This document shows positions 38,743-43,222 of a stretch of DNA of 64,000 nucleotides, piece after piece. Positions within the stretch are counted from its first letter, which is position 1. Each line of letters opens with the position of its first letter. Below the pieces are notes generated by a model. It was not told the origin of the DNA. It did no database searches and saw only the letters and a list, made by a program, of their open reading frames with translations. Both the position numbers and the translations under genes were made by a program. The stretch covers positions 186,001 through 250,000 of the forward strand of contig NZ_SLVX01000002.1 in assembly GCF_004341885.1 (NCBI RefSeq), written 5' to 3'. The DNA comes from Shinella granuli. GTDB taxonomy: Bacteria > Pseudomonadota > Alphaproteobacteria > Rhizobiales > Rhizobiaceae.

Positions 38743-39708
38743 TTACGGCCGTGCCTTGACGGCGGGGCCGATCTCCAGGATGCGGTTCGTCCAGACATAG
38801 CCGGGGAAGTCTTCCGGCAGGTCCTCCACCTGCCCGGCCGTGTCGATGCCGACCGTGCTGCCGCCGGCATAGGGGCCGATGAGGACCACCTCGCTGCCGG
38901 CGTCCTTCATGCGCGTCAGGAAGCGGTTCGGCCAGCCCCAGAACAGGAAGGCGTAGTTGCTCGGCACCGGCACCAGCGTGTTGCGGCAGGCCTCCGGCAC
39001 ATAGCCGATCCAGCCCGTGCCGAAATAGCGCAGCAGGCAGGCCTTCACCGAGGTCTTCGTGTAGCCCTTGAGGCCTGGCACCGCGGCGAGCGCCGCGTCC
39101 GTCGGCTCCGCCCCGCCATAGATGCCGAAGACCTTGTCCTTCCAGGCCGGATTGGCCGCCAGCAGCGCGGCCAGCGCCTCGCCTTCCTCCGCCCGCCGGC
39201 TCTTGAAGTTGATCAGCAGCTTGCCGGCCGGATCGGCGGCGAACATGTCTTCCAGCATCGGCATCTGCCCGACGCCCTTGCCGCGGAACGGGTATGTCTT
39301 GCCGCCGTCGGGCGTATAGCCGTAGCCGATGTCGAGCGTCTTCAGCGTGGCGCTGTCCGTCTCCTCGGTCACGCCCTGGCCGTCCGTCCGGCAGTCGAGC
39401 GTCCAGTCGTGGAAGACGGCGAATTTTTTGTCGGGCGTCAGGTGAACGTCGATCTCGACGACCTCGGCGCCCGCGGCAAAGGCCGCCTGCATGCCGGCGA
39501 CGGTGTTTTCCAGGAAATCGTGCCTGGGCGGGTCGATGAGGCTTGCCGTGCAGGTGTCGTCGTCGATCCCCTCATGGCTGAAGGTCTGGTGCGCGCCGCG
39601 ATGGGCCATCAGCTTCGTTGCGCCTTCCGGCGCGCTGGCGATCAGCGAACTGTTGAAGGACCAGATGAGCAGGGCGAAGCCCAGAATGAAGATCGGCGCG
39701 TTTCGCAT
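38743..39708 (-). CDS. Glycerophosphodiester phosphodiesterase family protein
   Basis: A 321-residue GDPD TIM-barrel protein with an N-terminal signal or anchor helix (APIFILGFALLIWSFNSSLIA). Active-site motifs are MAHRGAHQTF (His-Arg), FLENT (Glu), EIDVHLTPDKKFAVFHD (Glu, Asp, His). It would hydrolyse glycerophosphodiesters to glycerol 3-phosphate and an alcohol outside the cytoplasm. AGGAGGAG precedes the start. It lies 69 bases downstream of the GGDEF-EAL gene on the same strand and is convergent with era. Confidence 0.9.
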   Translation of the reverse strand: MRNAPIFILGFALLIWSFNSSLIASAPEGATKLMAHRGAHQTFSHEGIDDDTCTASLIDPPRHDFLENTVAGMQAAFAAGAEVVEIDVHLTPDKKFAVFHDWTLDCRTDGQGVTEETDSATLKTLDIGYGYTPDGGKTYPFRGKGVGQMPMLEDMFAADPAGKLLINFKSRRAEEGEALAALLAANPAWKDKVFGIYGGAEPTDAALAAVPGLKGYTKTSVKACLLRYFGTGWIGYVPEACRNTLVPVPSNYAFLFWGWPNRFLTRMKDAGSEVVLIGPYAGGSTVGIDTAGQVEDLPEDFPGYVWTNRILEIGPAVKARP

Positions 39709-39777: not shown

Positions 39778-42141
39778 TCAGGCGCGGGCGCGGCGATCGG
39801 GGCTCTGGGCGGCCTCGCGGGCCTTCTCGACAAGCCGCTGCATCGCCCAGATGCCGATCTCCTCGAGGGAGAGGGGACGGCTGATGAGATAACCCTGGTA
39901 GAGGTCGCAGCCTGCGGCGGCGAGCAGCGCCATCTTCTCCGTCGTGTCGACGCCTTCCGCGATCACCGACATGTCCTGCGCATGGCAGAGCGCGACGAGC
40001 GCGCGCAGCGTCGGAAGGGCGGCGGAGCGGGTGAGGCTTTCGACGAGCTCGCGGTCGAGCTTGATGGTCTCGGCGGGATATTCGATGATCTGCTGCACCG
40101 AGGTGTAGCCCGCGCCGAAATCGTCGATGGAGATGCGGAAGCCGCGGGCACGCAGGATCTCGATGTTGCGGCGCGACTGCTCGCCGAGCTTGACGGCGAA
40201 GGTCTCGGTCAGCTCGATCTCGATCATGCGGGCATCGATGCCGTGCCGGTCGGCGCTGTCGCAGAAATGGTCGCTGATCGACTTCGTGTAGAGCTCGGCG
40301 GAAGAAATGTTGATGCAGAGGATCGTCTCGGGGCCGAAGAGTTTCCTGATCTGCCCGTATTCCGCCATCGCCCGGTCGATCACCCACCAGTCGATCTTGC
40401 TGAAGAGGCCGGTCGTCTCGGCGATCGGGATGAATTCGTCGGGCGTCACGCGGCCGAGAACGGGCGAGGTCCAGCGCAAGAGCGCCTCGCAGCCCGTCAC
40501 CTTGCCGTGGCCGTCGACGATCGGCATGTAGACGAGGTGGAATTCGCGGTCGGGATCGAGGACGCGCAGCTCCTCCTCGATGCGGCGCTGGCGGTTGCGC
40601 TTCTCGTGCAGCGAGCGGGAATAGCGGGCCGAGCCGTTCTTGCCCTGGGATTTCGCCTGGTACATGGCCGCATCGGCATTGGCGACGAGTTCGGCCAGCG
40701 TGCGGGCATCTTCCGGATAGACGGCGATGCCGATGCTGGCGGTGACCGGATAGGCCTTGTCCAGCACCTCGAACCCCTCGGCGAAGAGGGCGAGGATGTT
40801 CTCGGAGATTTCCGTGATCGTGCCGCTGCCTGGCTGGCAGCGCAGCATGATGGCGAATTCGTCGCCGGAAAGCCGGGCGAAAAGTCCGTCCGGCAGGCCG
40901 CGTTCGGAAACGACGCGGGCGACGATGGCGGAGATGCGGTCGGCCAGTGTCTTCAACAGCTCGTCGCCGATCTTGTGGCCGTGCTTGTCGTTGACGAACT
41001 TGAAGTTGTCGACGTCGATGAAGAGCAGGGTGCAGCCGATATCCTCGGCCTCCGCTTCCTCTAGGATCTGCGTGGAGCGGATGTTGAAATATTCGCGATT
41101 GGAAATGCCCGTCAGCGTATCCGTCCAGGAGGCGTTCTGCACGAGATCGAAGGACTGCATGGACTGGTCGTGCAGCCGCTTGACGTTGGCCGAGAGGCGG
41201 CCGATCTCGCCGATCTCGTTCATCTCCGGCAGGGCGCTGCGGTTGCCGGTCATCACGTCGGTGAGCTGGCGGTCGAGCCGGGCGATCGGATTGGTGATGT
41301 AGCGGCGTACCAGGCCGAGCACCAGGATGATCGTGCACAGGCTGAGCGCGATGGCGCCGAGCGCGAGCAGCGACTTCAGCGTCCACAGCCGGTTCTCGAT
41401 GAAGGCCGGATCCGGCGTCAGCCGGGCGAAGAGAGACGGGCTCAGCGTCGCGGTCGCGGAAAGACCGCCCTGTGCCAGAAGCTGGTGCTGGCCGATTTCG
41501 ATCGCCGTGCCGTATTCCTTCTCCAGCGCCCGCTTCATGTCGAGGAAGAGTTTCGGCCGCACCGCGGTCTGCACGAGGATTGCGCCGCTCTTGGCGCTGG
41601 CGACCGGTCGGTTGAAGGTCAGCGGATCGATGAACTCCGAATGCACGATCAGCGGTTCGATGCCGGCGGCGTTGAGATAGGTCCAGGAGGAGAGCCGCGG
41701 GCTCTCGATCACATGCCTTGCATGCCGGATCTGCTGCGGCGTGATCTCGGCGAACGGATCGTCGCTGTCCTCGAAATAGTAGTCGACCGTCAGCGGCGGG
41801 CGGATGATCGCCACGGAGATGAAGCGCTTGCGGTCGTCGGAGAGCGAGGTGATGCTTTGCTGCAGACGCACGCCGAGCGCGGTGTTGCGATAGGCCGCAT
41901 CCGGCTCGTTGACGAAGAGGCGCACCGCGCCGCCCTCGACGAGCGAATAGATGAAGCTGCGGTTCTGCGTCACCTCGTTCTGGAAGACGGCGGTGAGCAG
42001 GCCCATCTGCTGCCAGAGGCGCGCGCGTTCCAGCGCCAGGATGGAGGAACTCTGCACGTAGTAGATCAGCGAGGCGGCGAGCACGTAGCCAGCAAGCACG
42101 ACCGGGAAGATGAGGGAAAGGGCGCGTTTACCGAGCGTCAC
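39778..42141 (-). CDS. Membrane GGDEF-EAL protein (c-di-GMP cyclase/phosphodiesterase)
   Basis: A 787-residue protein. Membrane helix 1 is about residues 10-30, a periplasmic sensor domain spans 31-253, and helix 2 is about 255-279. A HAMP-like linker (280-330), GGDEF domain (340-505) and EAL domain (525-770) follow. The cyclase active-site motif reads SGDEF (425-429) rather than GGDEF. The EAL domain keeps CEALLRW (Glu552), NISSAEL, EIELTET, SIDDFGAGYTS, IKLDRELV, IAEGVD and YQGYLIS, so c-di-GMP phosphodiesterase activity is expected. The GTG start (42139-42141) lies inside the end of the PotD-like gene, a 14-base overlap. The pair resembles NspS-MbaA, in which a periplasmic polyamine-binding protein controls a GGDEF-EAL partner. 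Confidence 0.93.
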   Translation of the reverse strand: MTLGKRALSLIFPVVLAGYVLAASLIYYVQSSSILALERARLWQQMGLLTAVFQNEVTQNRSFIYSLVEGGAVRLFVNEPDAAYRNTALGVRLQQSITSLSDDRKRFISVAIIRPPLTVDYYFEDSDDPFAEITPQQIRHARHVIESPRLSSWTYLNAAGIEPLIVHSEFIDPLTFNRPVASAKSGAILVQTAVRPKLFLDMKRALEKEYGTAIEIGQHQLLAQGGLSATATLSPSLFARLTPDPAFIENRLWTLKSLLALGAIALSLCTIILVLGLVRRYITNPIARLDRQLTDVMTGNRSALPEMNEIGEIGRLSANVKRLHDQSMQSFDLVQNASWTDTLTGISNREYFNIRSTQILEEAEAEDIGCTLLFIDVDNFKFVNDKHGHKIGDELLKTLADRISAIVARVVSERGLPDGLFARLSGDEFAIMLRCQPGSGTITEISENILALFAEGFEVLDKAYPVTASIGIAVYPEDARTLAELVANADAAMYQAKSQGKNGSARYSRSLHEKRNRQRRIEEELRVLDPDREFHLVYMPIVDGHGKVTGCEALLRWTSPVLGRVTPDEFIPIAETTGLFSKIDWWVIDRAMAEYGQIRKLFGPETILCINISSAELYTKSISDHFCDSADRHGIDARMIEIELTETFAVKLGEQSRRNIEILRARGFRISIDDFGAGYTSVQQIIEYPAETIKLDRELVESLTRSAALPTLRALVALCHAQDMSVIAEGVDTTEKMALLAAAGCDLYQGYLISRPLSLEEIGIWAMQRLVEKAREAAQSPDRRARA

Positions 42142-43222
42142 TGATCTGGGCCAGACTGCTGATGATGCGGCGGCGGGCCTGGACCGATTGCACGGTCAGT
42201 TCCTCCTGGAACTGGCTCTTGGCCAGGATTTCCGGTGCGGCATAGATTTCGGGATTGGAACGCATGTCTTCCGGCAGCAGGGCGAGGGCGGCGGAGCTGG
42301 CGGTCGGCATGTTGAGCTTGATGGCGTTGCGGGCGCCGTTCTCGGCATTGCTGATATAGTCGACCAGTTGCAGCGCCAGCGCCTTGTTGTGCGAGCGCTC
42401 GCTGACGGAGATGCAGTCGAGCCAGGAGAGCGTGCCCTCCTTCGGCACCACGTAGCGCCAGAGGCCGGGCGAGGCGACCTTGTCGTTCAGCGTGTACTGG
42501 TCGCCGCTATAGCCGAGCGCCATGTGGATGTTCGGGCCCTTGTCGGGGCTCTGCACCGAGGTGACCACATAGTCGTAGGTGAGCACATAGGGCGCCTGCG
42601 CCTTCATCAGTTCGTAGGCCGCCTTCAGCGTCTCGTTGTCGTTGGCGTTCACCGACTTGCCGAGCAGGACGAGCGGGGCGACGAAGGCCTCGGCGTGATC
42701 GTCGTACATGGCGATATGGCCGTGCAGGCTTTCGGCCGGCTTCATCAAGTCCGCCCAGGAGGTCGGCGGCGTCGTGATCTTGTCGGAGCGGTAGAGGATG
42801 CCCATCGTGCCCCAAAGATAGGGCACGCCGTAGCCGCCGCAGCGGCTCGCCCAGCCCTCCGCATAGTCCTTCAGGGACGGCACGTTGTTCTGGTCCAGCG
42901 CGGCGATGACGCCGCGCTTGCCGTAGAGCCGGGCGCCGTTCTCGTTGGTCACGACGACGTCGACATTGCTGTTCGGGTCGGCGAGGATCTCGTCGCGCAC
43001 GTCGCCGCTGTCATAGAAGGTCTGGCGCACCTCGATACCCGTTTCGGCGGTCCAGTCGGCAAGGATCTGTTCGTCGATATAGGCTTCCCAGATCAACAGG
43101 TTGAGGGTTGCCGCGCGCGCGGGGCCTTCCGCGGGGAGGGCCGCCAGTGAGACTGCTGCAAGAAAAGCGCCGCGCATACCGAAGGCCCCGTTGCCGTTAC
43201 GTGCGGTGAGGATAGACGGCAA
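42128..43222 (-). CDS. PotD-like periplasmic polyamine-type binding protein
   Basis: A 364-residue extracellular solute-binding protein of the spermidine/putrescine (PotD) type with a signal peptide ending PARAA (about residue 39). By alignment from memory to E. coli PotD, key ligand residues are kept: Trp45 and Tyr48 (IWEAYI), Asp175 and Glu178 (YDDHAEAF), and Trp267 and Asp269 (LSWLDC). No ABC permease or ATPase genes adjoin it. Instead its TAA overlaps the start of the GGDEF-EAL gene by 14 bases, so it probably serves as a ligand sensor for that enzyme rather than for transport. The true ligand is unproven; a polyamine is the best guess. Confidence 0.88.
   Translation of the reverse strand: MPSILTARNGNGAFGMRGAFLAAVSLAALPAEGPARAATLNLLIWEAYIDEQILADWTAETGIEVRQTFYDSGDVRDEILADPNSNVDVVVTNENGARLYGKRGVIAALDQNNVPSLKDYAEGWASRCGGYGVPYLWGTMGILYRSDKITTPPTSWADLMKPAESLHGHIAMYDDHAEAFVAPLVLLGKSVNANDNETLKAAYELMKAQAPYVLTYDYVVTSVQSPDKGPNIHMALGYSGDQYTLNDKVASPGLWRYVVPKEGTLSWLDCISVSERSHNKALALQLVDYISNAENGARNAIKLNMPTASSAALALLPEDMRSNPEIYAAPEILAKSQFQEELTVQSVQARRRIISSLAQISDAR

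Follow-up and report, generated by a model that had tools for sequence, protein, structure and literature searches.

What does a polyamine-type periplasmic binding protein do when its gene overlaps that of a membrane-bound enzyme of cyclic di-GMP (c-di-GMP) turnover? This arrangement occurs in a 64,000-nucleotide stretch of the Shinella granuli genome (contig NZ_SLVX01000002.1, positions 186,001 to 250,000; hereafter the window), where an nspS-like gene stands next to an mbaA-like gene. Sequence, tree, fold and gene linkage support assignment of the products to NspS and MbaA, and the two very probably form a system in which a polyamine-sensing binding protein controls a membrane c-di-GMP enzyme.

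An open reading frame check of the window placed nspS directly upstream of mbaA, both on the minus strand, with the nspS stop at 42128 lying inside the frame that opens at GTG 42141; the 14-base overlap reported in an earlier note on this DNA thus holds. Such an overlap probably couples their translation and keeps synthesis of the two proteins in step. That note gave the binding protein gene as 43222-42128, of which the frame and stop stand but the start does not: nspS most likely begins at ATG 43177 (349 aa), 45 bases downstream of TTG 43222, since this ATG is kept in the nine genus relatives compared and the frame upstream of it is shifted or stopped in several. We rejected TTG 43222 for the same reasons and for an in-frame stop between TTG and ATG in one locus (L045); NspS residue numbers below still count from it. 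The binding protein matches Pfam SBP_bac_8 (2e-29) and scores far under the NCBIfam cut-offs for PotD (101.8 of 582 bits) and PotF (101.7 of 636 bits), as fits a relative of the transporter proteins rather than a transporter protein itself; a PHROGs search with it gave no match. MbaA carries GGDEF (7.5e-37) and EAL (2.8e-60) domains by Pfam, and hydropathy agrees with the proposed two-helix membrane protein with a periplasmic domain of about 220 residues.

The likeness to Vibrio cholerae nspS-mbaA in gene order and domain make-up is borne out by architecture, overlap and NspS clade membership, and the alignment to NspS and MbaA that had been proposed as a check gives 33% (NspS) and 35% (MbaA) identity to Vibrio pacinii (L086). 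Linkage, the SGDEF motif and a cysteine pair discussed below are also common to V. pacinii and the window, whereas the Vibrio overlap is 17 bp by the same count and the window's Tyr48 is Thr in all 11 Vibrio rows counted. V. cholerae MbaA has EVL in place of EAL (PMC9993111). The claim that no rhizobial example had been described fails: Chavez-Jacobo et al. 2023 (PMC9993111) reported the Sinorhizobium meliloti pair smc00991/smc00992, with nspS mutants that have polyamine-dependent phenotypes, and their phylogeny names Shinella, with a 13-bp overlap in a few isolates. A 2026 S. meliloti polyamine paper again mentions the NspS/MbaA polyamine signalling system (PMC13293326). Rhizobial NspS-MbaA is thus already known, and the window pair is a further, well-conserved case. 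The S. meliloti pair has the same gene order, overlapping genes, SGDEF and EAL motifs and topology as the window (PMC9993111), and identity to strain 4H41 (L061) reaches 59% for NspS over 338 aligned residues and 59% for MbaA over 770, although the overlap in L061 is 4 bp by our count (3 per PMC9993111) as against 14 bp.

Phylogenetic and structural comparisons agree with this assignment. From 118 aligned rows, 29 were dropped before the binding-protein tree was built, being duplicates, near-copies or, in one case, a fragment; the 89 used include six PotD-like paralogs from the window's genome and no record named V. cholerae. The tree recovers an NspS clade of 49 rows with support 100/99, in which the window protein groups with Sinorhizobium and Vibrio NspS, apart from transporter PotDs; all six paralogs fall outside. 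The predicted NspS model has the fold of polyamine-binding proteins, and structure comparison (VIA-align) returns polyamine binders as its closest folds. The transporter binding proteins PotD, PotF and SpuD have this fold and most ligand-pocket residues in common with window NspS but lie outside the NspS clade, the cysteine pair being absent in 14 outgroup rows; also in contrast to them, the window pair has no neighbouring ATP-binding cassette (ABC) genes, neither ATPase nor permease being found by motif in its 1.5-kb flanks, as the earlier note had said.

Linkage of the two genes extends well beyond the window. The MbaA sensor domain is present in 21 of 21 genus genomes searched (the window's own counted), and nspS adjoins mbaA in 10 of 10 genus loci checked (the window's and nine others). 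Across the family, where a strict cut-off of 1e-150 makes the count a lower bound, MbaA occurs in at least 15 of 151 genomes, including several Rhizobiaceae besides the window's genus, and nspS lies directly upstream in all 15, overlapping by 14 bases in six loci and by 4 bases in nine; the proposed check of conservation across Rhizobiaceae thus found no unlinked pair among these loci. Presence in every genus genome searched and linkage throughout these family loci indicate that the pair is not a chance arrangement. A phylum sample gave an MbaA sensor match in 12 of 398 genomes, 10 of them outside the family, and a plasmid collection gave one in 7 of 72,556 records, all 2.0 to 4.6 Mb long.

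Our named loci are the 79 matches listed from a collection scan, and frequencies among them are not totals. Of these, 47 carry the MbaA sensor domain and are NspS-MbaA loci. The genes overlap in 46 of the 47 (4 bp in 15, 14 bp in 20, 17 bp in 11); the remaining one, L063, contains frameshifts. NspS distances correlate with those of the MbaA sensor part (r=0.952 across 43 loci), as expected of co-inherited genes. The genes flanking the window pair, which we take to be era and tex, have matches on either side of the pair in only 5 of the 21 listed rhizobial loci (flanks up to 6 kb; none in S. meliloti L061), indicating that the pair itself is kept and not its neighbours. Judged from these neighbours, the window pair is probably chromosomal.

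By analogy, with ligand and output direction transferred from S. meliloti and V. cholerae, the window pair most likely works as theirs do. NspS would be exported and bind an extracellular polyamine, likely a triamine; liganded, closed NspS would dock on the periplasmic domain of MbaA; docking would move MbaA away from net phosphodiesterase and towards diguanylate cyclase activity; and this shift would alter biofilm, exopolysaccharide and motility. In V. cholerae, norspermidine-bound NspS favours the MbaA cyclase state, and apo or spermidine-bound NspS leaves the phosphodiesterase (PMC8967002, PMC8079147). In one S. meliloti background, biofilm and exopolysaccharide no longer respond to putrescine and spermine when nspS, and probably mbaA with it, is missing (PMC9993111).

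Motif patterns confirm the earlier reading of MbaA as a protein with intact EAL motifs and an SGDEF cyclase motif at residue 425. The EAL-type motifs lie at residues 552, 611, 641, 672, 694, 729 and 749, positions that we take to be catalytic, and a pattern search of window MbaA for an RxxD inhibition site ahead of SGDEF found none. MbaA could instead be a phosphodiesterase only, its SGDEF domain being regulatory, a reading we consider unlikely though the strongest of the alternatives. SGDEF deviates from GGDEF, and S. meliloti mbaA mutants form more biofilm or exopolysaccharide (cited in PMC9993111), yet V. cholerae MbaA likewise has SGDEF, and vps induction by polyamines requires that site, per a figure legend (PMC8967002).

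The periplasmic part of MbaA is homologous to that of other MbaA proteins, as judged from profile matches in probable Vibrio genomes and full-length alignments. In window MbaA it has no Pfam match of its own, dCache_1 included, and dCache_1 matches are weak and limited to 2 of 43 MbaA members. Nor does window MbaA have a HAMP match in Pfam; published NspS-MbaA pairs are described with a putative HAMP before GGDEF. The MbaA sensor profile aligns over its full length with the dCache/HAMP-bearing N-termini of relatives (probability 98.6%, 13% identity), a score of the kind that membrane helices can inflate, and a PDB sequence search with the profile returned a single chance-level row (E 0.76).

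The ligand residues named in the earlier note (W45, Y48, D175, E178, W267 and D269) are all present in window NspS. Norspermidine contacts predicted for V. cholerae NspS are W41, D70, D90, F131, Y233, D236, W261 and D263 (cited in PMC9993111); mapped through other Vibrio-type sequences, these correspond to W45, D74, N93, L136, Y238, D241, W267 and D269 in the window, with 6 of 8 contacts kept. Nine pocket residues (W45, Y48, D74, D175, E178, Y238, D241, W267 and D269) are conserved in 13 of 13 genus rows, which represent 12 genomes, one locus being counted twice.

Several observations weigh against a polyamine-sensing NspS-MbaA system of the published kind. Where V. cholerae has D90 and F131, the window has N93 and L136. 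The genus shows N at position 93 in 12 of 13 rows and L at position 136 in 10 of 13; all 11 Vibrio rows carry D and F at these positions, and nine Sinorhizobium/Ensifer rows carry D or G at position 93. MbaA, moreover, may act without NspS in places. Among the 10 extra-family genomes with an MbaA sensor match, nspS lies within 1.2 to 1.5 kb upstream in six and not in four; these four, from one genus that is probably Vibrio, were picked for that reason (L032-L035; about 1.2 kb searchable upstream in L035). Genome-wide, G328, G475 and G495 have no NspS-level protein, and the fourth, G398, has one relative elsewhere (5e-86). In L032 and L034 a different gene, which reads as pheA by our assumption, stands upstream of mbaA. 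Finally, the opposite effects of two polyamines in V. cholerae were not seen in S. meliloti (PMC9993111).

Variation at positions 93 and 136 may mean that NspS ligand specificity differs between genera. At these two sites S. meliloti 4H41 carries D and F in contrast to the window's N and L, in line with the statement that all eight contacts are kept in S. meliloti (PMC9993111). The same variation, together with the difference between the window and the published V. cholerae contacts, could be read as a sign that the two-protein receptor is as proposed and its natural ligand is some other amine or an amino acid derivative; PotD-named proteins can take other ligands, such as γ-aminobutyric acid in a SAR11 PotD (VIA-align list). 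We regard a non-polyamine ligand as quite improbable, given the invariance of the nine pocket residues in the genus, the polyamine ligands of the nearest folds and the action of the S. meliloti ortholog in polyamine responses (PMC9993111). The host genome encodes a homospermidine synthase (809 bits against a solved homospermidine synthase, in searches with PF03435 and of the PDB) and adjacent carboxy(nor)spermidine-type decarboxylase and synthase genes (407.7 of 409 and 446.7 of 800 bits, under the NCBIfam cut-offs), from which it probably produces triamines itself.

Bacterial binding proteins can serve distant permeases, and NspS has 16 other matches in the genome, of which some adjoin ABC ATPases, but a protein that works for a polyamine ABC transporter encoded at another site and is only incidentally linked to a GGDEF-EAL gene is very hard to reconcile with linkage in 47 and overlap in 46 of the loci listed, with a clade separate from the six paralogs, or with flanks that lack an ABC ATPase by motif in all 21 listed rhizobial loci (L045-L065) in a test able to find one, as its detection of an ATPase within 1.5 kb at 4 of 7 paralog loci indicates. 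Linkage, tree and missing neighbouring ABC genes led us to reject a transport role, which the earlier note had called unlikely and which sequence and fold also disfavour. Some 5 kb downstream, where the locus ends, an ATPase motif occurs in L087, L113, L115 and 7 of the 11 listed Vibrio loci of the clade; we take it to belong to unrelated genes.

The NspS clade is further marked by a cysteine pair. Each of its 77 rows has two cysteines and no more within the aligned domain, always at the positions of window C128 and C270; both occur in 0 of 41 rows outside the clade, where L111 has one of them and six rows contain two cysteines of which at least one lies elsewhere. This count takes in all 118 rows, near-copies included, over the part aligned to the NspS profile. 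Among the 79 matches listed, the loci with the cysteine pair are exactly the 47 that have the MbaA sensor domain. In the predicted model (mature numbering) C270 belongs to strand 231-240, and C128 comes five residues ahead of the long strand 99-111. These two are expected to be neighbouring crossover strands in the PotD-type fold, so that a C128-C270 disulphide beside the hinge is likely. Neither PMC9993111 nor the NspS literature-search results gave any sign of this pair or a disulphide, most subscription papers and the main NspS mutagenesis paper lying outside that search.

The 32 listed loci that are not NspS-MbaA show a wider range of partners: 16 have a GGDEF-EAL neighbour, five a hybrid kinase, one (L087) a dCache-HAMP protein with no further Pfam domain and eight none, while two end at a contig edge. 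An ABC ATPase motif occurs in 5 of the 8 loci without a receptor neighbour. Beside the binding proteins nearest the NspS clade, the receptor is a GGDEF-EAL protein or a hybrid histidine kinase and in most cases carries dCache and HAMP domains. This sister group resembles the window in its adjoining binding protein and membrane receptor and mostly keeps W45, Y238, D241, W267 and D269, but it lacks the cysteine pair, has HAMP and mostly also dCache matches in Pfam, partly under the cut-off, and in some cases has a kinase output. HAMP was found in 10 of 10 sister GGDEF-EAL proteins searched out of 16 (one under the cut-off) and dCache_1 in seven (three over it); among the five hybrid kinases, HAMP was found in five and dCache_1 in four (two over the cut-off). 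The published phylogeny includes non-overlapping Shewanella and Desulfuromonas pairs (PMC9993111); our loci from these genera, L109 and L112, fall in the sister group and not in the NspS clade.

We tentatively propose, with somewhat more doubt than confidence, that NspS-MbaA is one branch of a wider class of two-gene receptors that join a polyamine-type binding protein to exchangeable outputs (GGDEF-EAL, hybrid histidine kinase or HAMP only), the NspS branch being set apart by an invariant C128-C270 disulphide close to the hinge, which may commit the binding protein to signalling instead of transport.

Two arrangements in these relatives deserve mention. A hybrid kinase (HAMP-HisKA-HATPase-receiver) directly follows the NspS-like gene in L099, L101, L108, L110 and L111, from Desulfobacterota, SAR324 and Gammaproteobacteria, and these are candidate binding-protein-dependent polyamine kinases. 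Two tandem NspS-like genes precede one GGDEF-EAL gene in L088 (Marinobacter) and three do so in L091 (Halomonas), as if several ligands fed one receptor.

Features of the NspS-MbaA locus in window coordinates
Feature	Position	Strand	Basis
nspS-like gene: periplasmic polyamine-type solute-binding protein, 349 aa, presumed signal peptide	42128..43177	-	ATG start 43177
mbaA-like gene: membrane GGDEF-EAL protein, 787 aa, GTG start 42141	39778..42141	-	Pfam GGDEF and EAL; 59% identity to S. meliloti 4H41, 35% to Vibrio pacinii
nspS/mbaA overlap	42128..42141	-	nspS stop 14 bases within mbaA frame
Cys128 codon (count from TTG 43222)	42839..42841	-	First of invariant pair, 77/77 NspS-clade rows
Cys270 codon (count from TTG 43222)	42413..42415	-	Second of invariant pair, 77/77 NspS-clade rows
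MbaA first hydrophobic stretch, residues about 6-30	42052..42126	-	Hydropathy
MbaA periplasmic domain, residues about 31-251 (~220), presumed NspS docking/sensing part	41389..42051	-	Homologous through clade
MbaA second hydrophobic stretch, residues about 252-283	41293..41388	-	Hydropathy
GGDEF domain, residues 339-502, SGDEF at residue 425	40636..41127	-	Pfam and motif pattern
EAL domain, residues 531-756, catalytic motifs present	39874..40551	-	Pfam and motif pattern

Downstream of the pair, a glycerophosphodiester phosphodiesterase gene (GDPD by Pfam; 38743-39708, minus strand) starts 69 bases past mbaA and may be co-transcribed with it; a GDPD homologue lies near the pair in one of the 21 listed rhizobial loci (L049). 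In one genome of the window's genus, G545, the standard MbaA sensor domain is accompanied by another, divergent one (E 2.2e-88), possibly from an extra, horizontally gained pair. In Aureimonas leprariae, an MbaA-like frame (L072:6890-8512) that overlaps the NspS gene by 14 bases has GGDEF but no EAL by Pfam and is possibly a cyclase-only variant or a broken frame.

For annotation, the two cysteines are an easy way to distinguish an NspS that signals from a PotD that transports, and the relatives linked to kinases hint at polyamine-type receptors whose outputs differ. For the window's genus and several other Rhizobiaceae, the pair is a likely input from polyamines to c-di-GMP, through which common plant and microbial metabolites would be linked to surface living.

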